Shown here one piece after another: positions 24,293-37,146 of a stretch of DNA of 64,000 nt. A program made the position numbers and the translations under genes. Numbering within the stretch: the stretch's first letter is position 1; each line of letters opens with the position of its first letter. The DNA comes from Spirirestis rafaelensis WJT71-NPBG6 (GTDB lineage: Bacteria; Cyanobacteriota; Cyanobacteriia; Cyanobacteriales; Nostocaceae): positions 1-64,000 of the forward strand of contig JAHHID010000036.1 of assembly GCA_019359015.1 (NCBI GenBank), written 5' to 3'. Under the pieces are notes generated by a model. It did no database searches. It saw nothing but the letters and a program-made list of their open reading frames with translations, and was not told the origin of the DNA.

Positions 24293-25294
24293 TTATTTCA
24301 AAACCAGTGGTGGATATTTTTCGCTTTCGCCCATTAAGTATTTTGCAAGCAACCGGGCTTGCAGTTCAAAAGCTTCTTGATACATGCATTTGCGTCCTAA
24401 GACTGGATGTTTAAACTCAGATTGTTTTTTCTGTGCGTACAGCCGCAAAAAGGTTTTGCGTCCTTCAGGGGTAAGGGAAACCGCACCGCTTAATGGCTCT
24501 GTAACAAAATCTGCGGGTGTCAAATAGCGTTTGTTTATTGCCAATAGTACAACTGCATCTACTATTAATGGGCGAAACTCCTCCATTAAGTCCAAAGCCA
24601 GCGATGGACGACCGTAGCGATCGCAATGCAAATACCCCAAATAAGGGTCAAACCCGACAATGTTAACTGCACCTTGAACATCGTGACGCAGCAACGAGTA
24701 CCCAAAGCTGAGTAGGGAATTGACTGGATCGGTTGGGGGACGCCGGACGCGGGTTTTAAATTCAAATTCCGCATTGCGAATGAGTTGGTTGAAACAGCCA
24801 AAATATGCAGCACTCCCCGCACCTTCCAGCCCACGTAACGAGTTTACTGTTTGTGTTGTGTCGATGGGTGCGATCGCATGTTCTATGCGGGTAATGCTAG
24901 CAGATAAATCCAAGTCTGTATCGCGTTGACGGCGGATAAGAGTGTTGCGGTAGTTTTTAAGTTTACCGCGTACAAACGCTTGTACGGCGTGAATTGCTTG
25001 AGGTGACTCACCCGCTGCTTGCCATTGGGCTTTGCGAACAAAGATATTTTTGGTAACTTCTGGCTCTAATCGTCCGAGATAGCGACCTGTATCGGTAAGA
25101 AAAGTCAGTGGAATTTGCCTTGTTAATAGTTCATTAACAACAGCTGGTGAAACTGTAGCACGCCCTAAAACTACAATACCATCGATTTTGAGTAATGGTA
25201 TATCTAAAATCGTTTTTTTGTCGAACTTGACGCTTAATCGTTCGTCGATTTTACCGATAAATGCATCATTTTGGGAAATGTAAACTGTGCCCAT
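24293..25294 (-). CDS. cas1: CRISPR integrase Cas1 (type I-D)
   Basis: 333 aa. The N-terminal beta domain is 'MGTVYISQNDAFIGKIDERLSVKFDKKTILDIPLLKIDGIVVLG'. The helical catalytic domain holds 'LRGLEGAGSAAYFGCFNQLI' with the metal-binding Glu, 'HCDRYGRPSLALDLMEEFRPLIVDAVVL' with the His and acidic residue. Length and motifs are normal for an active spacer integrase. It lies between cas4 (57 nt before) and cas2, as in other I-D adaptation modules. Confidence 0.96.
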   Translation of the reverse strand: MGTVYISQNDAFIGKIDERLSVKFDKKTILDIPLLKIDGIVVLGRATVSPAVVNELLTRQIPLTFLTDTGRYLGRLEPEVTKNIFVRKAQWQAAGESPQAIHAVQAFVRGKLKNYRNTLIRRQRDTDLDLSASITRIEHAIAPIDTTQTVNSLRGLEGAGSAAYFGCFNQLIRNAEFEFKTRVRRPPTDPVNSLLSFGYSLLRHDVQGAVNIVGFDPYLGYLHCDRYGRPSLALDLMEEFRPLIVDAVVLLAINKRYLTPADFVTEPLSGAVSLTPEGRKTFLRLYAQKKQSEFKHPVLGRKCMYQEAFELQARLLAKYLMGESEKYPPLVLK

Positions 25295-25351
25295 AAAGTA
25301 TGAGTTGAGTGTTATGAGTGTTTGATTGTTAAAAAATTTAAAATCAAAAAG

Positions 25352-25945
25352 TTAGAGTGCTTCTTGATAGCGACTTACTTTTTCTGTTGCTTGAGGTAAA
25401 CATCGTCCATACAAGCTGCATCCATCGCAGCGCTTGGTCTTGACAGCTTTAGGCATTGTCCCTGTAGATAAAAGTATTTGCACAGCTTCGATAGTAGCGA
25501 TCGCACTTTGTCGCAACTCTTCATTTATCTCGACTAATTGGCGTTGGTGCGAATGTGCGTAATAGATATAACCAGTATTAATAGTTTTTCCGGTCATTTC
25601 TTCTAAACACAAGGCTTGGGCGCAGACTTGCAGTTCATCGTTATCCCATTCACCTTTGCGTCCGCGTTTGTATTCAACAGGATAAAATTCGCCATTTTCA
25701 GCTTCGATTAAGTCTGATTTACCAATGAGTTTATGTGTATCTGATTTCAGCCAGATTGCCCGAATTTGCCAAGTTGATTCGCGGTTCCCTTCACTAACAG
25801 TATGCACGCGTTCATGTAAACTTGTGCCTTCAATTGTGTATTGGTTGTCAATAAATTCTCCCGCACAAAACATCCGCCAGCAGCGGTGCGGGCAGTAAGC
25901 ATATTGGTTTAATGCTGCAATTTGAATATATTCGTCATTTCTCAT
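25352..25945 (-). CDS. cas4: CRISPR adaptation nuclease Cas4
   Basis: 197 aa, RecB-type nuclease. The Fe-S cluster cysteines are visible: Cys18 in 'YAYCPHRCWRMFC' and three more in 'KRCDGCSLYGRC' near residues 172-182. The nuclease core includes 'LIGKSDLIEAENGEFYPVEYKRGRKGEW', with the Asp and the E-x-K pair, and a following Gln motif 'LQVCAQALCLEEM'. Cas4 trims prespacers and selects PAM-bearing ends before Cas1-Cas2 integration. It is co-directional with cas6 and cas1. Confidence 0.95.
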   Translation of the reverse strand: MRNDEYIQIAALNQYAYCPHRCWRMFCAGEFIDNQYTIEGTSLHERVHTVSEGNRESTWQIRAIWLKSDTHKLIGKSDLIEAENGEFYPVEYKRGRKGEWDNDELQVCAQALCLEEMTGKTINTGYIYYAHSHQRQLVEINEELRQSAIATIEAVQILLSTGTMPKAVKTKRCDGCSLYGRCLPQATEKVSRYQEAL

Positions 25946-25987
25946 TGGTTATTTATCTTTTATTATTTTTAGCTTTATTAACAATTG

Positions 25988-26809
25988 CTAATTTCTAACT
26001 CTTCTAACCATACCCATACCCATTGTGCTTTTTCGCCCTACGCCTGCATATATTGCAAAATCAGCTAAGGCATTTATTTTTTTGATTGATATTGGTTCCA
26101 TTTCACCAAAAATACGATAGCTAATTTCGCCAACACAGCCAATAAATTTGCTATCGTAGTTGCTTAGAATTTGGGTATTGATGTTAAAAAAACTGGGATA
26201 AATAGATTCGACGGGGATATTATCAAATTCAATCCCACTGTATTTATTCCAGCGACTGAGAAGACTGTTAAAGACACATTCTCGAATTGGTAGTACGGTA
26301 TCGTATCCTCCTTGACGAAATGCTGTAGGGGTGGCAAAGGTGAAGTTAATAGTGCGATCGCTTTCTGATGCTTGTTCATATAATTGTGCGTAGGTGCAAG
26401 CATTTGCCCAAGGTTGGGTAGATTGGGGTGTCCCTTGAATGCTGGTAATAAATAAATCAGCAGAACCCAAATGCCAAGGTTGGTTGGGGTTAAGGTTTAG
26501 CCATAGCGGAGTCAGCTTGCTAAATAGAGTGTCGTCTAATAGAGAGATGCGCCACCAACAGCAAGTACCTGGGGCAATAGGTTTTTGATGACATAATTGC
26601 AAGGTGTGATAATTTTTGTGGCTTGGTTGTATTTGTAAGGGAGAAAGAGTAAAAGGCTTGTCTGCGTTGGATGAATGCAGATAGTCTCCTAATGTTTTAT
26701 CTACCGAACTAACAAGCGTTAAAAATAGGGCGTGGAGATGTCTGCCGGTGAGGAAATCAGGGTAGATGGAGGATTTTGGTGTGAGGTTGAGAACGAGGCT
26801 ATGGGGCAT
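25988..26809 (-). CDS. cas6: crRNA-processing endoribonuclease Cas6
   Basis: 273 aa. It begins 'MPHSLVLNLTPKSSIYPDFLTGRHLHALFLTL', the usual Cas6 opening with a candidate His near residue 24 or 27. It ends with the glycine-rich loop 'YAGVGRKSTMGMGMVRRV', the C-terminal signature of the family. It should cut the repeat 8 nt from its 3' end below the TCCCT/AGGGA hairpin, leaving ATTGAAAC tags. It sits between csc1 and cas4. A dispersed palindrome (26830-26856) lies just upstream of its start. Confidence 0.93.
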   Translation of the reverse strand: MPHSLVLNLTPKSSIYPDFLTGRHLHALFLTLVSSVDKTLGDYLHSSNADKPFTLSPLQIQPSHKNYHTLQLCHQKPIAPGTCCWWRISLLDDTLFSKLTPLWLNLNPNQPWHLGSADLFITSIQGTPQSTQPWANACTYAQLYEQASESDRTINFTFATPTAFRQGGYDTVLPIRECVFNSLLSRWNKYSGIEFDNIPVESIYPSFFNINTQILSNYDSKFIGCVGEISYRIFGEMEPISIKKINALADFAIYAGVGRKSTMGMGMVRRVRN

Positions 26810-26829
26810 AATACAAAAGTTTTTGTATT

Positions 26830-26856
26830 GTAGAGACGCAAATTTAACGCATCTAC
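26830..26856. repeat. Dispersed palindrome between csc1 and cas6
   Basis: GTAGAGACGC and ACGCATCTAC face each other across AAATTTA. The hairpin is imperfect and belongs to the GTAGAGACG family seen elsewhere in the window. It could attenuate the transcript between effector and processing genes. Confidence 0.5.
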
Positions 26857-26882
26857 AAAAGGACTGTACTAAGTTGATTTGT

Positions 26883-27590
26883 TCAATTATTAAAACAATA
26901 TTCCATCCGAGCCGGAATTTTTACTTCTTGGATTTTATCAAATTGGTAGTATTGCCCTCGCATTTGCACATTTTTAATTAAGCTTACTGGAGGCATATTT
27001 ACCACGTCATAGCTAATCACTTGATTAGTGAACATCACATCTAGGGGATTTAAAGGGTAGGTACAAGTAAATATACCTTCAACAATTTTATGTTTTGGTA
27101 ATTCTTCAACAATTACCTCAGCCTTACTCATCCATTTACCTAAGCGAATCCATTTTGATAATCTGAGTTTATTGCCAGAAATAACAAAAAACTCAAATTT
27201 ACTTTCTGGCGCAATTTCTTTTGCTCTACCAAAACTAGGGATATTTTTCTGAGTTTTTTGCATCTCAACATGATAATTGTTATTAGCATACTTCCAGGTG
27301 TTGAGGATAGAAGAATGATTGAGCGATCGCGCTGGAGTTACGTAAATTTTCTGTTGATTGAGTGGCGTTAAATGCTCCTCATATTTTGGCACTTGTTCGG
27401 GGCAAAAGTATCGATAGGAATGTTCTTCAGCAACGGTAGTAGAGTAGATTTTGCTATCAACTAAACCCAATGCATAACAAAGAGCGTAATTGTGGATTAT
27501 TGGCTCTGTTTCATACAATCGCCCGATTTCACGAGTTGCGAAATAAAGGCTGTCGTGCAACTCTAATTGACAACGGTAAATAAACACCAT
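26883..27590 (-). CDS. csc1: Type I-D Cascade subunit Csc1 (Cas5d)
   Basis: 235 aa. The start 'MVFIYRCQLELHDSLYFATREIGRLYETEPIIHNYALCYALGLV' is diagnostic of Csc1, the Cas5-type subunit of I-D Cascade that caps the 5' end of the crRNA. The start codon overlaps the csc2 stop by one base (TAATG), so the two are translationally coupled. Normal length. Together with Csc2 and Cas10d it defines the I-D subtype. Confidence 0.94.
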   Translation of the reverse strand: MVFIYRCQLELHDSLYFATREIGRLYETEPIIHNYALCYALGLVDSKIYSTTVAEEHSYRYFCPEQVPKYEEHLTPLNQQKIYVTPARSLNHSSILNTWKYANNNYHVEMQKTQKNIPSFGRAKEIAPESKFEFFVISGNKLRLSKWIRLGKWMSKAEVIVEELPKHKIVEGIFTCTYPLNPLDVMFTNQVISYDVVNMPPVSLIKNVQMRGQYYQFDKIQEVKIPARMEYCFNN

Positions 27591-28624
27591 TACTCTTTCC
27601 CCGCTTTAGCAGCAGTTTTCTTCTTGCTGATATGCTTCTTGGCATAATCTTTAGCTTCTGCATCAGCTTTTTGCAAAATTGCCTGAATTCCTTTCTCACT
27701 TCCTGTTAAAGTTTTGACTTCATTAATTAAGGATACAAAAGCATCACCAATGAAATCTCTATGAACAATGAACTCATCAGCCATTAACGCCTCAATAGCA
27801 TTTTTAGCAGCAGTAATTACATCATCTTCATCTAGTGGATCGGGAGGATTTATAGTATTATTAGATTTCATTTGGTCATATATTGCCTGAGTCCAACGCA
27901 GGTTACTAGTGATTTCTCCATCCGCAAATACGACACCAATTAACTCATTTCTAACGCGACCTGTACGGGTAGTTTGCGCCCCATAGTGACGAGTTCGCAA
28001 AATGTTATTAAAAACGTAAAGGAAGCTAGCTTCAGTGGGGTCTTTCAAGGTGACAATACTAGGGAAGAAAACTTGCGGTCTAATATGGTCTTGTTGGTTA
28101 ATTCTGGCTGTTACTGTACCTATTTCACCATCTACTTTACCATCTGATTTCTTTTCTCCTTTTGCAGCCATTGTGCCATTTTCATAGGGAGCATTGAGGG
28201 TAAAACTTTCGTGTGATTCATCAAAAGATGTAATTGAAAATGCTGTATCTACGACAACTTTGGATTTTTCAGAGCCAGAATCACCAATAGCAAACCCGTA
28301 AATAATGCAATCAGGATTATCCATTGCAAAAGCTACGTTATATTCACATTCTTCAGCAGTCATTAAACCATAGTTCCGTAGCAATTCTCGGCCTACTAAA
28401 CGTTCTGGCGTTGATTGCTTACGTTTGAACATCGACAAACGGCTAATTGTAGTTTTATCTTTGACTCCGGCTCTTACCCGTGCTTTATTAAGTTCTGAAT
28501 CTGTCTGAAATAAAGGATAAGACTCGGTAATACGAATAGTCAAAAAATGGACATATTTACCCATTGGCTTGTATGGAATTTCAGATTGAAAAAACTTCGC
28601 TTCAACAGTCTTCAATAATGACAT
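27590..28624 (-). CDS. csc2: Type I-D Cascade backbone subunit Csc2 (Cas7d)
   Basis: 344 aa from the ATG at 28624, which has GGAG 9 nt before it; an ATG at 28639 overlaps that site. The sequence 'MSLLKTVEAKFFQSEIPYKPMGKYVHFLTIRITESYPLFQTD', 'GRELLRNYGLMTAEECEYNVAFAMDNPDCIIYGFAIGDSG' and 'ILRTRHYGAQTTRTGRVRNELIGVVFADGEI' identifies Csc2. This is the Cas7-type protein that polymerises along the crRNA. A lysine-rich tail ends the protein. It is between cas10d (80 nt upstream) and csc1. Confidence 0.95.
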   Translation of the reverse strand: MSLLKTVEAKFFQSEIPYKPMGKYVHFLTIRITESYPLFQTDSELNKARVRAGVKDKTTISRLSMFKRKQSTPERLVGRELLRNYGLMTAEECEYNVAFAMDNPDCIIYGFAIGDSGSEKSKVVVDTAFSITSFDESHESFTLNAPYENGTMAAKGEKKSDGKVDGEIGTVTARINQQDHIRPQVFFPSIVTLKDPTEASFLYVFNNILRTRHYGAQTTRTGRVRNELIGVVFADGEITSNLRWTQAIYDQMKSNNTINPPDPLDEDDVITAAKNAIEALMADEFIVHRDFIGDAFVSLINEVKTLTGSEKGIQAILQKADAEAKDYAKKHISKKKTAAKAGKE

Positions 28625-28704
28625 ATTTTTTGTCTCCAAATTAAATGAAATAATCGCTTGATAGTTTTGTACGCAGAATCGTTATTTCTATAGGCTAAAA
28701 TAGC

Positions 28705-31700
28705 CTACAAAGCTTCATCTTCATTTTCTTCTTGTATATCATTATCAGGTTTATTACCTTTATCATGGCGTTCTTTATCATTTTCTAGACGATATAAAAA
28801 CTCGCAAGTATCTTTGATTAGATTGAGTTGACGGCCAGCTAAACGAGCGCGATCGCCTGCAAATGATTTTTCAAAAACTTCTACTACAAAGTGTTGTGCA
28901 AAATTTAAAATTGCCTCTCTTTCTTCATCACGATGAACGATAACCCAACGTCCCTCTGCTGTTGAGTTACGCACTCGCTCCATCAATTTAAAAATTTTTG
29001 CAGCTACCGCATCAACTAATACTTCACCTTGAAAGAAGTTTTTGTCGGCTTTGATAATAGTCTCAGCAGCCTCATCAATTGGTTTCAAGATAGCATTAGA
29101 CTTGATTGGTTTTCCTTTACTAGATTTTGCTCGGTAAAATTTGCGGTAAAGTTCAGTTAATTTTTTGGGATGATGCAAGTGTGATTCTTCTGCCATAGTC
29201 CATTTCTCCAGGTGAAAATCATATTTAACATAAGGGTCAAAACAAGGGTAAAAGTGGTTAGCATAAAGCTTAATTTTACTCAAGCTTGCAGCATCAACTT
29301 TTTGGTTACGCACCCACCGATTGAGATAAGAAAAGACGTACAGTGGACTGGTTTCAAAATCTTTAGCCAGTTCCGTAAATCTCCCCCAGTTGGCATCGTA
29401 ACCAGACTTCCCCTGTCGCGCATTCACATCTAAATGAATGGCATAAGCGGCGGTAAGCACATTTAAAGGTGCTGGATATTGGATGCCGTTTTCGTTCCAG
29501 CCTTCGAGGATGTAGTCAAGACGGAAGCGATCGCGCCTTACTAAAGCACGAAAAGCATGAGGCGCACTATCAAGGAAAACGCTTTCCTCAAATTCAGCCC
29601 CATCATTAAAAGGTGGAATTGGTGACTCTGAAATCACAGTTTTAACATCTAAAATCATTGGGAAAGCAAACGCTAACCAAGTTGGCATTACCCAAGATTC
29701 TGTATCGGTGCTGTCTCTTCCTGGCGGGAGCGCCATGAAGTAAAATGTTAAAGGCTGGTCTTCAGGATAGGAAAGCTTAAAGGTGCGATCCTTGTCACGC
29801 TGGAGGTTTTCATCGATTAAGAAACTATCTACACTTTGGTAGCGATCGCGCCCCAAGTCCGCCTGTAAATCCTTACTGATAAAATGATTCCGAACGCCCG
29901 TATCAAAGCGAGTTTGAGCAATACCATTGTATGCTTTCTGCAAAAACTTATTAGTCTCTGGAGTAAAGTAATAAGTAGGATAAAAGTAGAGATAGCGATA
30001 TTTACCATCTTCAAATCGCTTACCTACAGCTTGAGTTTGATTCATCAAGATTTGCCTCAGCATCATCTCCATACCTGCAATACTGGAGATATTGCGTTTA
30101 GCGTTGGAACCTCCTAACATCTGCTTATTTGTATAAACTTGTGGCGTAAATAAAACTGCTGATTCCATTTGCTCAGTAACCGTGTAAGCAGAATGAGAAA
30201 TTGAGCAGATTAATTGTTTCCCTCGCCCTGCTTTTTTCGCAGCATTGTAATTATCTAACTCATTTAGAAATGTTTCAACTTGAGTTTTAACAGATGGCTC
30301 TTGATTAGTGCCTGGTAACATGACAACTCGTTTTACCCAAAGCCTTAAATCATCCCAACCATCAGGTAATTCATACTGAGAAATTATCGGAAAAATTAAG
30401 GTTGTCAAATAGTCAATGACTTGCTGACAAGCTTCGCGGACATCTTCAATACCTGGATGATGTTCTAAATATTTAGCCGCCAGATAGTACCATTCATAAG
30501 GTACTCCTCCAGTATTTCCCTTTAACTTGTTTTCTTTGAGACTTTCATTAATGCGTTGAATTTCTCTAATTTGGGGTAAACATTCTGCTATATTCCAAAA
30601 TTCTGCAACTTTGTGAGTTAAATCAAAATCGGGAACTGCTGGCAGCTTTTTATCTTTCTTACGAGCAGAATCAACGCGATTAACTGTTTCTTCCCAAATC
30701 TTCCGGCTAACTAAATCCCCAAATTCTGCTATTTGGTCAATGCGGATATCATCTTCAAATTTGAAGTCATAATCAGCAGATAAAACATTTTGTTGCTGAA
30801 ACTTATTCAGATTTTCGCTGCGACTTTTAGCAACAGAGCCTTTATTAGGGTTTAAGATGCGTAATGTTGCATCTAAGGCTACTTTCATCAAGCCTATATC
30901 ATCAAAAAATAAGTTGTAATATTCGGCATATTTCATGCCTTTGCCATCTCTACCAAATCCTGTTTGTCTCAGGCGTAATTGACCTGAACAAAGCGATTTA
31001 ATACTATTAACTACACGATCTGGTAAATCTTCCGGCGAGATAGCTGGAGCATTGCGCGAAGCCAAGTAAATTACGCCTGTTGGCAGATATAACAAAGGTT
31101 CATAGTAGGTCTGCTCATCAGTATTGAGTCTAGTATGAGCCTGGATTAAAGCATTATTTACCACATTAGTTAAAACACCACGATTCTCAGCAATGCTGTG
31201 ATAGGTAAATTTTAATTGCCCATCACTGAGGCTGTGGAGAATTCCATTTAATGTTTGGTGTTCTGCATCTTGAGGATGCTTAATAACTGAGGAAACTAAA
31301 TCAGCTAAATAAGTTAAATCAGCAAGACATATCAGGATATAATCATCAATTATTGGCTGTAAACCATACTCAGAAACATTGAGATTTGTATCATTTCGAC
31401 GCTGGGCATTGTAGGCAATAAATAACAAATCATCTCGATATTCTTGCCATGCTGTTGGTTCATCAGGACTAACAAATTTATCAAGACCTAATTCACAGAC
31501 TATAACATCTATAATTTCGCGGTGGGCATCTACAGATAACTTGCGAATGTCTTGTTCTTTATCTTGGCTAATTGTTTTATAATTATCTGGCATTTTAGGA
31601 AATAGCCGATAATCAAACTTTTCAAAATCATGTAAAATAAACCCAGCAATTAATAACCGTCTTTCTTGTTCTTGAATTACCCTTTTTGCAGTGGTATCAA

Positions 31701-32193
31701 GTTTATTTAGACAACGCTCTATTAAATTAGCTGGTAGTAAACCATTGAGTAAATGAGTATTTAAAGATTGATCACCTGCATTTCTTCGATCAAGTTTTTT
31801 CGGCTCTTTTATTTTGTGGCTTTTACCTAAATTATTTTTGTGGAAATTCTCTATCTCCTTTTCTCTCTTTTTATCGAAATAATCAAAAAATTTACCACCT
31901 TTGGCTGTGACTCCAACTGCTACCCGTAAAAGATTGGGTAAAACGTAATCACTAAATTCCTGCATAATTAAATCATCGTCATTTTCTGATTTAATTGCAT
32001 CTTGCAGTAACTTGAGGGTTAAGAGTTCTGCTGATTGTGTTTCGACTTTTAGATTAGATGTTTCTTGAAAGTCAGAATCATCTCCAGACATCCAATCATC
32101 ATCTGATAGTTCGGAAGTTGAATCATTTTCTATTTCTGCTTTTAAGAGTGATAGTTGTTGATATTCATCTGATTTCTTAGTTTTTTTAGCCAT
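28705..32193 (-). CDS. cas10d: Type I-D large subunit Cas10d (Csc3) with HD nuclease
   Basis: 1162 aa. After an acidic, probably disordered N-terminus (1-60), an HD-type nuclease domain follows. It includes 'LNTHLLNGLLP' (about 145) and 'LIAGFILHDFEKFDYRL' (about 181-197), the HD pair being at 188-189. The central and C-terminal parts are typical of Csc3, e.g. 'RQTGFGRDGKGMKYAEYYNLFFDDIGLM' and 'AYAIHLDVNARQGKSGYDANWGRF'. In I-D the HD nuclease sits on Cas10d rather than Cas3, and Cas10d also reads the PAM. It ends acidic (NDIQEENEDEAL). It follows the YhcG-type nuclease gene by 59 nt. Confidence 0.95.
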   Translation of the reverse strand: MAKKTKKSDEYQQLSLLKAEIENDSTSELSDDDWMSGDDSDFQETSNLKVETQSAELLTLKLLQDAIKSENDDDLIMQEFSDYVLPNLLRVAVGVTAKGGKFFDYFDKKREKEIENFHKNNLGKSHKIKEPKKLDRRNAGDQSLNTHLLNGLLPANLIERCLNKLDTTAKRVIQEQERRLLIAGFILHDFEKFDYRLFPKMPDNYKTISQDKEQDIRKLSVDAHREIIDVIVCELGLDKFVSPDEPTAWQEYRDDLLFIAYNAQRRNDTNLNVSEYGLQPIIDDYILICLADLTYLADLVSSVIKHPQDAEHQTLNGILHSLSDGQLKFTYHSIAENRGVLTNVVNNALIQAHTRLNTDEQTYYEPLLYLPTGVIYLASRNAPAISPEDLPDRVVNSIKSLCSGQLRLRQTGFGRDGKGMKYAEYYNLFFDDIGLMKVALDATLRILNPNKGSVAKSRSENLNKFQQQNVLSADYDFKFEDDIRIDQIAEFGDLVSRKIWEETVNRVDSARKKDKKLPAVPDFDLTHKVAEFWNIAECLPQIREIQRINESLKENKLKGNTGGVPYEWYYLAAKYLEHHPGIEDVREACQQVIDYLTTLIFPIISQYELPDGWDDLRLWVKRVVMLPGTNQEPSVKTQVETFLNELDNYNAAKKAGRGKQLICSISHSAYTVTEQMESAVLFTPQVYTNKQMLGGSNAKRNISSIAGMEMMLRQILMNQTQAVGKRFEDGKYRYLYFYPTYYFTPETNKFLQKAYNGIAQTRFDTGVRNHFISKDLQADLGRDRYQSVDSFLIDENLQRDKDRTFKLSYPEDQPLTFYFMALPPGRDSTDTESWVMPTWLAFAFPMILDVKTVISESPIPPFNDGAEFEESVFLDSAPHAFRALVRRDRFRLDYILEGWNENGIQYPAPLNVLTAAYAIHLDVNARQGKSGYDANWGRFTELAKDFETSPLYVFSYLNRWVRNQKVDAASLSKIKLYANHFYPCFDPYVKYDFHLEKWTMAEESHLHHPKKLTELYRKFYRAKSSKGKPIKSNAILKPIDEAAETIIKADKNFFQGEVLVDAVAAKIFKLMERVRNSTAEGRWVIVHRDEEREAILNFAQHFVVEVFEKSFAGDRARLAGRQLNLIKDTCEFLYRLENDKERHDKGNKPDNDIQEENEDEAL

Positions 32194-32252
32194 TTTCTTT
32201 ATTAAATTAAATAAGATTTGACTTTTCCAGCATTATCGTTAATCGTCAAGAT

Positions 32253-33272
32253 TCATTCAAATCCTTCTAGCAATTTAGCAACTTGTTCTGGATCTGGAAG
32301 TTGATTTTTTAATTCTTGTGGTACTTTAGAAACTATTTGGTAAGTTGCAACACCAATTGGTTTATTAGATTCCTTTAGTGCATATTCCACAATAGTTCTC
32401 TGTTTGGATTTACAAAGAATAATGCCAATAGAAGGATTTTCTTCTGGTAGCTTTACCGTGTTATCTAAAACAGCTAAATAAAACTGCATTTTGCCAACAT
32501 ATTCAGGTAAAAACTTACCAATTTTTAATTCTATTGCCACCAAACACTTCAAACGGCGATGATATAATAGGATATCTATAAAATATTCCTCATCATCAAC
32601 TTCTAAACGATATTGGCTACCAATAAAAGCAAATATTCCACCCATTTCTTGTAAGAAAGGTTGAACTTTTGCTAAAATTGACTCTTCTAGCTGTCGTTCG
32701 CTGTGTTCATCTGCTAATTCTAAAAAATCAAAAGTATATTCATCTTTAACTGCTAGCTTTAATTGGTTACGTATCTCTGCTGAAATACTTTGATCAAAAT
32801 TAGTTTGATTAAGCAGAGTTTTTTCATAAGTTTGATTTTCAATTTGGTGAATTAATACGTTTTTTGTCCAGCCAAACTTCCGAGTCATTCTAATGTAAAA
32901 CTCTCGTTCTAAGTCATCTTTGCATTTTTCTAAAATGACCAAATTGTGAGTCCATCCAATTTCTGCAACCATTGGTTGCAGTTTTTGATTTTGGCTATAT
33001 GTGACGTAAAAATTCCGCATATTCCAGATATTTCTAGCAGAAAAACCACTAATACCAGGAAACTCTGCTTGTAAGTCTTTTGCTAGCTGTTCTACTACTG
33101 ATTTACCCCAACTAGCATCCTGTTGTTTGATAACAATCATCTGCCCAATATCCCAATACAGGTTAATCATTTCCCGATTAACTGCCTTTAATGCTTCGTA
33201 CTGGGCTGAACGAATCCGTTGTTGTACTTCCATAAGTAGATGTCTGTAATCGTCAGAAATGAAATTACTCAT
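32253..33272 (-). CDS. YhcG/DUF1016-family PD-(D/E)XK nuclease
   Basis: 339 aa. The N-terminal DUF1016 helical region begins 'FISDDYRHLLMEVQQRIRSAQYEALKAVNREMINLYWDIGQMI' and contains 'GFSARNIWNMRNFYVTY'. The C-terminal nuclease domain has 'VDDEEYFIDILLYHRRLKCLVAIELKIGKFLPEYVGKMQFYLAVLD'. The Asp and E-x-K catalytic set is intact. The family is widespread near restriction-modification and other defence genes; its activity is poorly known. Here it is inside the cas operon, in the same orientation, 59 nt ahead of cas10d. Its presence there is not part of the standard I-D gene set. Family call is strong; a role in CRISPR immunity is inference. Confidence 0.9.
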   Translation of the reverse strand: MSNFISDDYRHLLMEVQQRIRSAQYEALKAVNREMINLYWDIGQMIVIKQQDASWGKSVVEQLAKDLQAEFPGISGFSARNIWNMRNFYVTYSQNQKLQPMVAEIGWTHNLVILEKCKDDLEREFYIRMTRKFGWTKNVLIHQIENQTYEKTLLNQTNFDQSISAEIRNQLKLAVKDEYTFDFLELADEHSERQLEESILAKVQPFLQEMGGIFAFIGSQYRLEVDDEEYFIDILLYHRRLKCLVAIELKIGKFLPEYVGKMQFYLAVLDNTVKLPEENPSIGIILCKSKQRTIVEYALKESNKPIGVATYQIVSKVPQELKNQLPDPEQVAKLLEGFE

Positions 33273-33437
33273 AATAAAAATATTTAAACTAGCTGCATAG
33301 GTTCAACAAGCTTGTACATCTTTCCGTGCCAAGTGCGAGATGCTTGCAACAAAGTTTTAACGCATCTTGGTGTCTGCCACTATAAGCACCAGAAAATAAC
33401 TTTTTGAATGCTATTAAAATTTTAATTTGGAGAAGGA

Positions 33438-33470
33438 GGGGGCTTTTAAAATGATTTATTTTAAGCCCCC
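33438..33470. terminator. Strong hairpin, GGGGGCTT / AAGCCCCC
   Basis: GGGGGCTTTTAAAAT (33438-33452) pairs with ATTTTAAGCCCCC (33458-33470) with a small bulge. T-rich sequence follows on the plus strand and A/T-rich sequence on both sides. It lies immediately after the stop of the 63-aa ORF on the minus strand. It therefore probably ends that transcript and separates it from the nuclease-cas10d genes. Confidence 0.7.
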
Positions 33471-33478
33471 TTTAAATT

Positions 33479-33670
33479 TTAAGCAGCCAATTTCATCAAC
33501 TTCATAGGTATTAAGCAAGTTGGCTCTGGAAATAAATCGAGTTCGAGTTGTTCGTACTCGATGGGTTGCGGAACTTCCTCGAACTGCTTTTCTTCACCAT
33601 CATTAGCAGTAAAATGCTTAGATGTGTAAAGACGTAGGTCGAAGAGTTCCAACTGCTTATAAAAATCCAT
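33479..33670 (-). CDS. Small acidic hypothetical protein inside the cas locus
   Basis: 63 aa, beginning 'MDFYKQLELFDLRLYTSK' with a similar 'EYEQLELDLFPEP' near residue 39 and ending 'MKLMKLAA'. GGAG lies 10 nt before the ATG and the strong hairpin terminator begins right after the stop, so this looks like a genuine short gene. No family recognised. It lies between cas3d and the YhcG nuclease gene, downstream of a highly structured leader and of a site matched by the mini-CRISPR spacer. It is a candidate product (toxin or other) of a CRISPR-controlled unit, but that is speculation. Confidence 0.6.
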   Translation of the reverse strand: MDFYKQLELFDLRLYTSKHFTANDGEEKQFEEVPQPIEYEQLELDLFPEPTCLIPMKLMKLAA

Positions 33671-33890
33671 GCAGTTGAAGCTCCATTTACTTTTTGTGCA
33701 TGGTGGCTCTTGTCATCAAAAAGGCGTGATAGCGTCGGCAGCGTGTTAGCATTTGTGGCAACGCTCATGCGGCTGAGGTAAGAAATTATCAATACCGCAG
33801 CCGTAAGAGCGTCGTCTATGCTCAAACATCGGTGACAACGAGTTTCCGTCTCTGAACTTGAAGGCTGACACCACCGCCTAAATAATAACA
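33671..33890 (-). ncRNA. Candidate structured leader or small RNA upstream of the 63-aa ORF
   Basis: Leftward, this stretch contains a long hairpin. Arms 33793-33812 and 33761-33780 pair at 17 of 20 positions across a 12-nt loop. A weak promoter (-10 TATTTA at 33884-33879, -35-like CTGAAC at 33906-33901) could start it near 33872. Within it a 27-codon ORF (33829-33746) reads MFEHRRRSYGCGIDNFLPQP...CHKC, with a cysteine-rich end and an AGA-CGA-CGC arginine run. Whether RNA or peptide matters cannot be told from sequence. Confidence 0.4.
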
Positions 33891-33898
33891 CATCGTAT

Positions 33899-33917
33899 AA
33901 GTTCAGCATAGGAAGAC
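33899..33917 (-). promoter_or_regulatory. Site matched by the mini-CRISPR spacer, with GTC PAM
   Basis: The minus strand reads GTC then TTCCTATGCTGAACTT. The sequence after the solitary repeat at 34001-34020 starts TTCCGATGCTGAACTT: 15 of 16 match. GTC fits the GTH-type PAM reported for type I-D. The site covers the -35-like part of the putative leftward promoter. The match is seen directly; its function is inferred. Confidence 0.55.
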
Positions 33918-33920
33918 CAC

Positions 33921-33948
33921 TTGTAAATTTAGACTAAATAGTTATAAA
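33921..33948 (+). promoter_or_regulatory. Putative promoter of the mini-CRISPR
   Basis: TTGTAA (33921-33926), 16 bp, TATAAA (33943-33948): a good vegetative sigma-factor promoter pointing right. A start near 33955 would give a leader of about 40 nt before the first solitary repeat. Nothing else on the plus strand here would need a promoter. Confidence 0.55.
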
Positions 33949-33995
33949 ATCAGGGTGGGCGAACTTTAGCACTGCTTTCAGAAATTTAGGCAGTT

Positions 33996-34128
33996 TAAAA
34001 TCCCTATCAGGGATTGAAATTTCCGATGCTGAACTTGAAGGCTTATACCTTCTCGCCCAAATTTGCAAGCCCTTACATTTATTGAATAAGGGTTTGCAAG
34101 ATTCTAAAATCCCTATCAGGGATGAAAC
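33996..34128 (+). CRISPR. Mini-CRISPR: two degenerate solitary repeats downstream of cas3d
   Basis: TCCCTATCAGGGATTGAAAT (34001-34020) and TCCCTATCAGGGATGAAAC (34110-34128), each preceded by TAAAA, match the processed end of the array repeat (TCCCTATTAGGGATTGAAAC), but on the plus strand. The hairpin arms TCCCT/AGGGA are kept and only the loop differs. The second copy lacks one T in the handle. The 84-nt interval is longer than one spacer. The second repeat ends against the cas3d stop codon, so a rightward RNA would be antisense to the cas3d 3' end. Confidence 0.7.
34062..34101. terminator. 13-bp hairpin after cas3d
   Basis: TTGCAAGCCCTTA and TAAGGGTTTGCAA pair (one G-T) across an 11-nt loop. 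It lies 30-70 nt downstream of the cas3d stop and inside the interval between the two solitary repeats. It may terminate the leftward cas3d transcript or fold within the rightward RNA. It has no long U-run. Confidence 0.5.
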
Positions 34129-34129
34129 T

Positions 34130-36337
34130 CTAAACTATCCATATCTCTTCCCCCTGGAAACGATAAGCTTGAGTATCTAGCAATAGTGCAGACTGCCCGA
34201 AAGCAATGCAGTATGGTGGTGTATTATCTAAAACACTATATTGGTCACTAATTGGGTAAATCTGAAAGTGCATTGGCAATCTTCCTTGCTGACGTACTCT
34301 CTCTAAGGGAAAAGGCAGCAGATAACTAACTAATGCCTGTTTCTTCAATTGCTTGTTAATTTCACTAATCCAATAGTTTGCAGGTTGCCAAACCTGAATA
34401 CCTAACAACACCTGCACATCCCAAGTATCAGCAAAGGGTTTCAAGTCCCCAGGATAAGTAAATTTCCAATCTAGTCTTTCTTCTCGATAGCGAAGTAATT
34501 TCATAAATCCTAAACAGTTTTTAAATCTGCCTTTGGGAATAGTTGTATCTGTGCGTTCTGCTGTCGCTTGTCGCAGTCGTTCAAATTCTGTCCCTTTTAT
34601 CGGTTCAATTTCCAAGTTGCTGAGAATTCCTGGTAAATCGTAGGTTTTGAACTTATCAGCCTCATTTTTCTCGGTAGTATCGTAAATTCCACACAGTAAA
34701 GGACTCTTACCACGAAAGCTCACAGCCTCCTCTAAAATAGGATTTCCCTTATCTGTTCCTGAAAGTTCGTGCCATTTTTCTTCCCATTCTTTGCTACGGA
34801 CAAAGGCTGCTTTAAGATTGGCTTTTCTTTTGTCAGTGCTGAAAACTATCTCACAATCTTTCTTTAGTGCTTCCTGACTACCTGCTGCATATTGCTCTTT
34901 AATATTAGGATGTCCCAACTGCCGAACCAGTCGCATAGATTGAACAACACCCCATTTAAAGTAATAGCCTGTAAAATCATTAATTTTGCGGTATTTATCC
35001 CTAATTTGATCATGAAAAAATGGACGTTCATAAACTTCGCCTGACTTCAATAGTGGTGCTTCATCCTTCTCATCTTTTTCAAAAAGCCTTTTCACCAAAA
35101 ATTCAGGGACAAGTGCATAAGCAGTAAAGTTAGTAAAATTAATCTGCTGTCCGTCACGTTCATAACCATCATGTCGTCCCAGTCTGCCTAAACGCTGGAT
35201 AAAATTACCTGCGTCTGCTGATTCAAAAAACAAGAAATTGATTTTGAAATCAACACCCACATCAATAGTGCTAGTTCCTAAAACTAAATCAGCATCTAGG
35301 GATTCTTCTTTAGTTTTTTTCCCAGATAAACCAGTATTTTCTTCAACTGTGAAATTATACGGCTGGAGAAAAGGTGTAAAAAAATCCTTTAATCGTTTCA
35401 CAGCAGCAATAGAATTAAGAATAATTGCGCCTTTGCTATCTGGATGCTTTTGTAAATGATCTAAAATCAACGCTACATTGTCTCTTAACCAAGTTTCAGA
35501 AGCCTTAGATGTAGATTCTAAACCGACAAAATGCAATGATATTTCCCCTACGACTTTTCGCCAATATTGAGTTTTTAGATGCTCAAATTCAGTAATAGTG
35601 TTAGGAAATTGATATTTATTCTCTTCAACTGGGTTAATTTCATGACAGCGAAAATCTGCTAATTTAAGCCTCTCAATTAATTGGGGATTTGGGGTAGCAG
35701 AAAGGAATAAAAACTTTTTACGCCTGTTAGTACGACGAATCAAAAGCATTGTGTTAATTACGCTGGCAATTTGTGGCGCTTTGAACACATGAAATTCATC
35801 AAAAAGAATGACATTAAAACGCTTATCTATTCTATTCCAGAGTTTATCTGGATTATCTTTATAAAGTAAATATGACCCATAATGTAGATAGTGAAAAATA
35901 TCAGGATTGGTAAGCAAAATTTCAGATTGCCCAGCGCGAGTTTCTAAAGCTACTCCTTTTTTCAAGTTTTCTTCTTCAGCATAAATTTCTAATTCTTGTC
36001 CACTTAATCTATTAACGCGCGGTTTATGTTCAGGCTGAAATTGCTCAATGTATCCTTTAATTTGTTTTTCTTGATCTCTAGCGAGTTCGTTTGTGGGATA
36101 TAGCCCTAAAACAGGAGAGTGTCTTTGCAAAATATCCAGGTATCCGGCGAGACTTTTACCATCGCCAGTCATTGCAGTGTTGAATACTACATCAATATTT
36201 GGATCGCGCAACGCTTCTAAAGTTGCGGCTTGATGCCAAGAAAGTAACCAATCTTTAGGTAATTTCACCTCGTCAGGTGTTGGGACAGTTTGGGAGTAAA
36301 CAGGCTTAAGAGTAATAATTTTGTATGCTTCGGTCAT
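34130..36337 (-). CDS. cas3: Type I-D CRISPR helicase Cas3d (Cas3')
   Basis: 735 aa superfamily-2 helicase without an HD domain, as expected for I-D. Walker A is 'TAMTGDGKSLAGYL' (GDGKS at 58-62), DExH is 'ILFDEFHVF' (about 175), motif III 'LFLSATPNP', and motif V/VI regions are 'LGTSTIDVGVDFKIN' and 'NFIQRLGRLGRHDGY'. It unwinds target DNA after Cascade binding, while Cas10d supplies the nuclease. Its start overlaps the stop of the DUF5615 toxin gene by 4 nt (ATGA). It is therefore likely translated in coupling with the toxin-antitoxin pair. Confidence 0.94.
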   Translation of the reverse strand: MTEAYKIITLKPVYSQTVPTPDEVKLPKDWLLSWHQAATLEALRDPNIDVVFNTAMTGDGKSLAGYLDILQRHSPVLGLYPTNELARDQEKQIKGYIEQFQPEHKPRVNRLSGQELEIYAEEENLKKGVALETRAGQSEILLTNPDIFHYLHYGSYLLYKDNPDKLWNRIDKRFNVILFDEFHVFKAPQIASVINTMLLIRRTNRRKKFLFLSATPNPQLIERLKLADFRCHEINPVEENKYQFPNTITEFEHLKTQYWRKVVGEISLHFVGLESTSKASETWLRDNVALILDHLQKHPDSKGAIILNSIAAVKRLKDFFTPFLQPYNFTVEENTGLSGKKTKEESLDADLVLGTSTIDVGVDFKINFLFFESADAGNFIQRLGRLGRHDGYERDGQQINFTNFTAYALVPEFLVKRLFEKDEKDEAPLLKSGEVYERPFFHDQIRDKYRKINDFTGYYFKWGVVQSMRLVRQLGHPNIKEQYAAGSQEALKKDCEIVFSTDKRKANLKAAFVRSKEWEEKWHELSGTDKGNPILEEAVSFRGKSPLLCGIYDTTEKNEADKFKTYDLPGILSNLEIEPIKGTEFERLRQATAERTDTTIPKGRFKNCLGFMKLLRYREERLDWKFTYPGDLKPFADTWDVQVLLGIQVWQPANYWISEINKQLKKQALVSYLLPFPLERVRQQGRLPMHFQIYPISDQYSVLDNTPPYCIAFGQSALLLDTQAYRFQGEEIWIV

Positions 36338-36720
36338 TTATCTTTTCTCTCCACCTCAATATCCTGATATTCTTGAATACTTCCTTGTCGAATTAGCCAT
36401 AATTTACCAGTCACATCTGCTGCTTCAAGTCCAGCAATTAAAGTTTCTGTAACTGTATGATAATCTTCAAAAGTAGGACGAGATGGTAAACGAATGACTA
36501 TAATTCCTGTATAGTGAGAACGATTATATTTAAGACGATTTCCGAATCCTCTATCTATCGTTACTAAACATCTATTCTCGCTACGACAAATATCAATTAA
36601 TTCCTCATCAGGAGTTGAAATTAAACCTTGTTCTCGGACAGTGGCAACATCATGTCCTGCAAGACGCAATAATGTAGCTACTCGCAGACTACCAAGATTT
36701 TCATCAAGTTTAATATTCAC
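36334..36720 (-). CDS. DUF5615 PIN-like toxin
   Basis: 128 aa. Begins 'MNIKLDENLGSLRVATLLRLAGHDVATVREQGL' with the conserved 'LDENL' Asp/Glu, followed by 'DEELIDICRSENRCLVTIDRGFGN' with the second acidic site. This is the DUF5615 (Mut7-C/PIN-like RNase) fold that usually partners DUF433. The GTG start overlaps the antitoxin stop (GTGA), and its stop overlaps the cas3d ATG (ATGA). The sequence is full length with no broken motif. Predicted ribonuclease toxin of a type II toxin-antitoxin pair. Confidence 0.88.
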   Translation of the reverse strand: MNIKLDENLGSLRVATLLRLAGHDVATVREQGLISTPDEELIDICRSENRCLVTIDRGFGNRLKYNRSHYTGIIVIRLPSRPTFEDYHTVTETLIAGLEAADVTGKLWLIRQGSIQEYQDIEVERKDK

Positions 36721-36977
36721 TTTTGTGATTCCTTTTGCAACCCCAAAGGAATTTCTACATAGCTATCTCTTGTCATCTCCGCAGCGTATGCAATACAGGA
36801 TAGGATATCTTCTTGTTCCAAACCGGGATATTCTTCTAAAATTGTCTCTATTTTTTCTCCACTTGCAAGAAGGTCGAGAATTAAACTAACCCATATACGA
36901 TGACCTTTAATACAAGGTTTACCGAAACAAATATTTGGATCAATGGAAATTCGAGATAGTAAATCGTTCTTAGTCAT
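36717..36977 (-). CDS. DUF433 antitoxin
   Basis: 86 aa from the ATG at 36977, chosen because GGAG lies 8 nt upstream and it matches the family start ('MTKNDLLSRISIDPNICFGKPCIKGHRIWVSLILDLLASGEKIETILEEYPGLEQEDILSCIAYA'). The frame also stays open upstream to 37112. The 'GKPCIKGHRI' and 'YPGLEQEDILSCIAYA' motifs are classic DUF433, a winged-helix antitoxin that binds its own promoter. First gene of the leftward cas transcript. It may add autoregulation to the cas promoter next to it. Confidence 0.9.
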   Translation of the reverse strand: MTKNDLLSRISIDPNICFGKPCIKGHRIWVSLILDLLASGEKIETILEEYPGLEQEDILSCIAYAAEMTRDSYVEIPLGLQKESQK

Positions 36978-37146
36978 TGAAACTTCTCCAAATTTGTCGT
37001 AATTCTTCTCAATGAATCCTCTTCTCCTAATTCTATATTTGGACTTACACTTAAATAGTGTCCGTAACTGGTTGTTAAAAACTATATTGGCACGCAAAAT
37101 AGAAGTTGACAAGAGAGTTTACGTATAAAGTACACGGACACTTTTA
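36978..37146. promoter_or_regulatory. Divergent cas/WYL control region with inverted repeat operator
   Basis: AGTGTCCGT (37057-37065) reappears inverted as ACGGACACT (37134-37142), and both arms carry matching TTAAA flanks. The left copy also forms a small palindrome, ACACT-TAAAT-AGTGT (37047-37061). The right copy abuts the WYL start codon at 37147 and overlaps its TATAAA (37124-37129). A regulator binding both sites could control both directions. TTGACA at 37106-37111 is only 12 bp from that TATAAA, so promoter boxes are uncertain. Confidence 0.6.

Follow-up and report, generated by a model that had tools for sequence, protein, structure and literature searches.

Autoregulation of cas genes by crRNA-like RNAs has been described under the name CreR (crRNA-like Cas autoregulators, Liu et al. 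2023, as summarised in PMC12737573), according to which the cas locus carries ectopic repeats, the guide pairs over a short stretch, a PAM is present and the target lies upstream of the effector genes. Related to these are the CRISPR-repressed toxins CreTA and CrePA, whose toxins are a small RNA (CreT) and a KilA-N protein (CreP); CreA antitoxins need pairing at positions 1-5 and 7-11 (PMC8501985). As set out by Makarova et al. 2012 (PMC3506569), the anticodon nuclease PrrC is encoded inside the EcoprrI restriction-modification (R-M) operon, where it is held by protein contact and possibly forms a second line, and it has been proposed there that cargo toxins are kept in check by immune components and not by antitoxins. 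HEPN-MNT and DUF433-PIN toxin-antitoxin (TA) systems are known from cyanobacteria (PMC4963859), and for the YhcG family Feder and Bujnicki 2005 reported no neighbourhood association save one R-M case (PMC1189080). A literature search on DUF1016 together with CRISPR returned no relevant work by title and abstract; in the open literature searched, which covers CreR through a review, we found no description of YhcG as a component of I-D operons, of a TA/YhcG slot before cas10d, or of regulatory crRNAs in type I-D.

In many filamentous cyanobacteria YhcG lies inside the I-D effector operon and a mini-CRISPR guide points at the putative control region of that same operon, which suggests that Cascade may restrain a back-up nuclease. 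Each component has a known parallel, in CreR, in CreTA/CrePA, in PrrC or in the TA genes of defence islands. The arrangement shares with CreR the features listed above, whereas the unit here, compared with that summary, also holds YhcG and TA genes. The proposed likeness to CreTA and CrePA is that Cascade with a crRNA-like RNA would restrain a harmful gene through seed pairing at the positions given; however, YhcG is a PD-(D/E)XK protein encoded in a cas operon and only a putative toxin. As with PrrC a nuclease gene sits inside a defence operon, although control here would be transcriptional. In sister loci this slot is taken by HEPN-MNT and DUF433-PIN genes, but YhcG has no constant antitoxin partner; and, in contrast to the 2005 survey of the family, one YhcG group is tied here to type I-D.

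The DNA analysed, a stretch of 64,000 nucleotides (hereafter the window), was annotated with PADLOC for cas genes and with Pfam for the TA genes (DUF433, DUF5615). The type I-D gene set is present (cas10d, cas3', cas7d, cas5d, cas6, cas4, cas1), and the order on one strand is DUF433, DUF5615, cas3d, YhcG, cas10d, cas7d, cas5d, cas6d, cas4, cas1 (Table 1). A CRISPR array of ~56 repeats lies beyond cas1, at 19.7-24 kb, and a WYL-domain gene is divergent from the opposite end of the cas operon. The coordinates agree with the preliminary description, in which YhcG was placed co-oriented with cas10d and 59 nt from it, with cas3d on the upstream side. Synonymous divergence from sister loci, calculated over 24293-36337, differs strongly between the segments cas3d-YhcG, cas10d-cas7d-cas5d and cas6d-cas4-cas1, and the nearest YhcGs (96-99%) come with the window's own cas3d lineage (cas3d 86-94%); the operon is thus mosaic, since the downstream cas genes diverge differently from cas3d-YhcG.

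Table 1. Coordinates of the type I-D locus and of the mini-CRISPR features in the window.
Feature	Position	Strand	Basis
YhcG-family PD-(D/E)XK nuclease (predicted), DUF1016_N + YhcG_C, 339 aa	32253..33272	-	profiles, motif
cas10d (csc3), large subunit of type I-D, separated from the upstream YhcG by 59 nt	28705..32193	-	PADLOC
cas7d (csc2)	27590..28639	-	PADLOC, Pfam
cas5d (csc1)	26883..27590	-	PADLOC
cas3d (cas3' helicase), upstream of YhcG	34130..36337	-	PADLOC
Toxin-antitoxin pair DUF433-DUF5615, immediately upstream of cas3d	36334-37112	-	Pfam
63-aa ORF between target and YhcG, conserved in other I-D intervals	33482..33670	-	
Strong hairpin between 63-aa ORF and YhcG, -16.9 kcal/mol, z -3.1, no T tract	33432..33480	-	
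Ectopic repeat R1 of mini-CRISPR, crRNA orientation, antisense to cas operon	33984..34020	+	
Guide, first 16 nt, TTCCGATGCTGAACTT, of putative CreR/CreA-like RNA	34021..34036	+	
Second repeat R2, degenerate, touching cas3d stop region	34104..34128	+	
Putative target GTC|TTCCTATGCTGAACTT, PAM GTC, 15/16 nt match, 627 bp upstream of YhcG start codon	33899..33917	-	

The YhcG ORF of the window is intact, starts with ATG and is matched over its full length by DUF1016_N (E=1.1e-48) and YhcG_C (1.7e-62), bearing out the earlier claim of a complete PD-(D/E)XK protein with an E-L-K motif, here E248-L249-K250. It thus shares both domains and the motif of the YhcG/DUF1016 family (PF06250 + PF17761, COG4804; PADLOC PDC-S02); PDC-S02 itself matches at 1.6e-152, and a PADLOC profile labelled CRISPR-associated PD-DExK matches as well. 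The catalytic residues predicted from the sequence are E192/E196-D233-E248xK250: in an alignment of 40 relatives E192, E196, D233 and L249 are invariant, position 248 holds either E or D, and 39 of them have K250. No meaningful match was returned by a PDB sequence search, and an AF2 model of low confidence (pLDDT 62) gave weak Foldseek matches to PD-(D/E)XK folds (2vld, MGME1). The protein is the sole match to the YhcG_C profile in the 7.07-Mb genome. The constant adjoining antitoxin gene by which a type II toxin-antitoxin system is recognised was not found for YhcG, DUF433 standing beside it in some loci only, and no antitoxin gene was seen in the cas3d-cas10d interval of the window. DUF433 was also considered as a general YhcG antitoxin and rejected: it is missing from many loci and also partners DUF5615.

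To place this neighbourhood in context, a genome collection was scanned for the 80 closest relatives, picked by similarity to the window YhcG, and their flanks were annotated by tblastn. Cas loci host 46 of the 80, and in 38 of these YhcG immediately precedes cas10d, cas3d being recognisable on the upstream side in almost every case. Two loci (L058, L076) have the order YhcG-cas3d-cas10d, and in six further cas loci YhcG is placed elsewhere: in the Calothrix-type loci L052, L067, L068, L079 and L099 the array is followed directly by YhcG and then by a cas6 gene, and in L072 it is flanked by the cas3d and cas6 genes of a different I-D lineage. The gap from the end of YhcG to cas10d is 8-64 nt in 30 of the 35 intact cases without an intervening HEPN gene, and a HEPN (often MNT-HEPN) module fills it in 15 other cases. 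On pANA02, a complete plasmid from Anabaena sp. 90, the order is cas3', a 65-aa ORF, YhcG, a HepT-like gene and cas10d. At the level of sequence, therefore, the association with I-D loci and the tandem order with cas10d are established.

Outside CRISPR loci, YhcG was located between hsdM and hsdS (L081, L106), adjoining hsdS or hsdM (L089, L091), beside BrxA (L078), with helicase and/or Eco57I-type methylase genes as neighbours (L069, L097, L105), or among metabolic or unassigned neighbours (L063, L083, L109). Judging by these neighbourhoods, a nuclease-family gene lodged in DNA-targeting defence operons is a recurring theme for YhcG. Relatives at 54% identity are also carried by viral-classed contigs (L201-L203).

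In the YhcG tree a 50-row group (SH-aLRT 93) consists of cas-linked members only, with the YhcGs of L072 and L086 falling outside it. A second tree, from which long branches were removed, requires two changes of the cas label, and a constraint keeping the 50 cas-linked rows together was not rejected (p-AU 0.66); monophyly of the cas-linked group is thus compatible with the data, not proven. YhcG dN/dS against the window copy ranges from 0.04 to 0.16, similar to or below that of cas10d of the same loci (about 0.08 to 0.27), values by which cas-linked YhcG is under purifying selection. The genomic survey for DUF1016 next to cas10d that had been proposed in the preliminary description was carried out, and it recovered the neighbourhood in dozens of I-D loci; the notion of an incidental neighbour is rejected by the recurrence, by the group-specific association and by the purifying selection. 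As for the two scenarios offered there, co-expression with the effector is supported on anatomical grounds by the 8-64 nt gaps to cas10d, and the idea of an inserted independent system was too weak given that the cas-linked group is under purifying selection.

We also searched an even sample of 386 cyanobacterial genomes with PF06250 and TIGR03174 and scored the cas3d-cas10d intervals. The main I-D lineage (lineage A, 38 loci) has cargo of any kind in 30 loci: intact YhcG in 12 (one before cas3d), MNT and/or HEPN genes in 19 and DUF433/DUF5615 in 10; YhcG relics occur beside intact cas genes in 3 (G087, G101, G278). Lineage B has DUF433-DUF5615 in 3/4 loci, and lineage C, in which the interval is short, has cargo in 0/13. 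A Pfam check of representatives confirmed the nucleotidyltransferase, HepT-like, DUF433 and DUF5615 domains. By these counts the interval is a slot for toxin-antitoxin-like cargo, YhcG being one recurrent occupant, and since most I-D loci lack YhcG or keep it only in decayed form, the gene is dispensable. The preliminary description had missed that HEPN-MNT and DUF433-DUF5615 share this slot, and also that the slot is preceded by a mini-CRISPR whose target, flanked by GTN, belongs to that operon. Relics with large internal deletions (L143, L146, L148) lie beside intact cas genes and indicate turnover of the cargo. In sister loci a DUF433-DUF5615-type pair is found between cas3d and cas10d; the window has its pair upstream of cas3d.

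These counts bear on two other accounts of YhcG. It could be an auxiliary interference nuclease that aids the I-D effector on target DNA, supplements the Cas10d HD nuclease and is regulated only through its operon position; the close tandem with cas10d at 8-64 nt, the conserved catalytic motif and the presence of the family in R-M, BREX and helicase/methylase operons, i.e. in DNA-targeting systems, would all fit. However, just 12/38 lineage-A loci have YhcG, relics stand beside intact cas genes in 3, and the slot otherwise holds TA genes and not other interference nucleases, so that we consider this account improbable. Alternatively, YhcG could be a stand-alone defence gene or selfish addiction cargo that is functionally unconnected with Cascade and uses the I-D locus as a site both safe and mobile. 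PDC-S02 is indeed a single-gene candidate in PADLOC, relics and turnover mark the interval as a hot spot, and the operon segments are mosaic; but the YhcG group is confined to cas loci, its position and orientation are conserved, it is under purifying selection, and YhcG is located beyond the putative crRNA target site (Table 1), and this account too seems unlikely to us.

Turning to that site, R1 matches the array repeat at 18 of its last 20 nucleotides, and an RNA running from R1 to R2 has a more stable predicted fold than its shuffled versions (z -4.0). The guide and the GTC-flanked target pair up to nt 16, with the mismatch at position 5 (within the seed) and not at 6; the target pattern has one exact occurrence in the 64 kb, the chance expectation being 0.04 even allowing <=2 mismatches. 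A further near-copy of the guide, TTCCGTCTCTGAACTTGAAGGCTGA, lies at 33844-33868 (+), with a match of 21/25, and is preceded by AGT, not GTN; a search with a 25-nt guide favours this near-copy because pairing at the GTC-flanked target stops at nt 16. Second near-copies of the guide were also seen in L047, L145 and L156. The putative target is upstream of the YhcG-cas10d unit, where a promoter scan gave scores near background. Read-through to YhcG is unsure in the window since the strong hairpin and 627 bp separate the target from YhcG; the hairpin at 33432-33480 could attenuate or end read-through into the gene.

Most lineage-A loci have one or two such ectopic repeats directly after the cas3d stop, in antisense orientation, and the sequence following the repeat handle matches a site usually 75-160 bp away. 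A guide-target pair is present in 28/38 lineage-A loci and was also seen in lineage B; the pANA02 locus has its own pair (14/16, PAM GTC). For statistics on guides we took one representative per distinct guide octamer (n=34) and its best 16-nt match irrespective of PAM. A 5' GTN, the published I-D PAM (PMC10212523), flanks 26/34 best matches (chance 1/16, p=5e-25, with related loci counted and descent ignored in the p-value). Mismatches fall on guide positions 6/12 in 38/52 cells, against 40/364 elsewhere in positions 1-16 (p=9e-21, ignoring descent); position 6 is outside the type I seed (PMC10212523). As a negative control, guides from the proximal repeat (at the cas3d 3' end, interval position ~65) matched no better than shuffled sequences. 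The 6-nt mismatch period is predicted by the crRNA geometry of type I complexes and not by tandem duplication. That the similarity is a chance or duplication artefact, as could be imagined from guide and target sharing one intergenic region and from the near-copy at 33844-33868, which hints at local duplication, is therefore extremely improbable in view of the period of 6, the GTN PAM in 26/34 distinct guides and the shuffles. The pairing of guide, target and PAM with its 6-nt mismatch period can be regarded as established on the same footing as the gene order.

Guide-target pairs are found in 27/33 cargo loci versus 4/22 cargo-free ones (p=4e-6, ignoring descent), and within lineage A alone in 25/30 loci with cargo versus 3/8 without (p=0.02, ignoring descent). 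The cargo-free I-D loci G066, G172 and G203 have pairs, and therefore Cas autoregulation may be the primary role of the pairs and is probably the original one, the cargo having come later under the same control. These pairs, together with those of lineage B, speak for the mini-CRISPR being no more than a CreR for autoregulation of cas10d-cas7d-cas5d, with YhcG and the TA genes as passengers whose induction is a by-product; against this stands the enrichment of cargo where pairs occur (27/33 vs 4/22, a count that ignores descent), and we regard it as a possible reading on the unlikely side.

The reading that we prefer, and to which we give an even chance, is that Cascade represses the I-D effector operon and that YhcG serves in it as an accessory nuclease, in the role of a guard or back-up. 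We infer repression, derepression and guard action of YhcG in the following way. The mini-CRISPR RNA would be made and loaded into I-D Cascade, and the guide would lead it to the site with the GTN flank, which lies between mini-CRISPR and cargo. Bound there, Cascade would repress the [cargo]-cas10d-cas7d-cas5d unit, without cutting because pairing stops at ~16 nt, too short for normal interference. YhcG would belong to the repressed unit, a step that is weakest in the window and strongest in loci like L031, in which 13 nt separate the end of an 81-aa ORF from YhcG. Were Cascade titrated, lost or blocked (by an anti-CRISPR or by many crRNAs), the unit would be derepressed, and more effector would be produced together with YhcG as a back-up or abortive DNase, by the same reasoning as for CrePA or for PrrC within EcoprrI.

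More tentatively, with somewhat less than even confidence, we propose that cyanobacterial I-D loci have a general crRNA-controlled 'guard slot' before cas10d, with YhcG, HEPN-MNT and DUF433-PIN as interchangeable occupants, and that a block of Cascade would release fresh effector plus a nuclease for suicide or back-up. In this manner the YhcG/DUF1016 family, so far poorly understood, would gain a testable role, and a concrete mechanism is supplied for how an immune complex could restrain cargo toxins. If true, Cascade autoregulation would extend to the I/III-hybrid subtype I-D, and the response of cells to anti-CRISPRs against I-D could be predicted.

Small ORFs also occur in the interval. A 75-aa ORF (L050:9282-9509, with similar ones in L151-L154 and L170-L172) is common between cas3d and cas10d; it had no match in Pfam and looks winged-helix-like by eye. 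The 63-aa ORF of the window, likewise with no match in a Pfam search, is conserved at ~47-50% in other I-D intervals (e.g. L041:9622-9813) and contains two QLEL-type motifs, QLELFDL and QLELDLF, which resemble beta-clamp-binding motifs.
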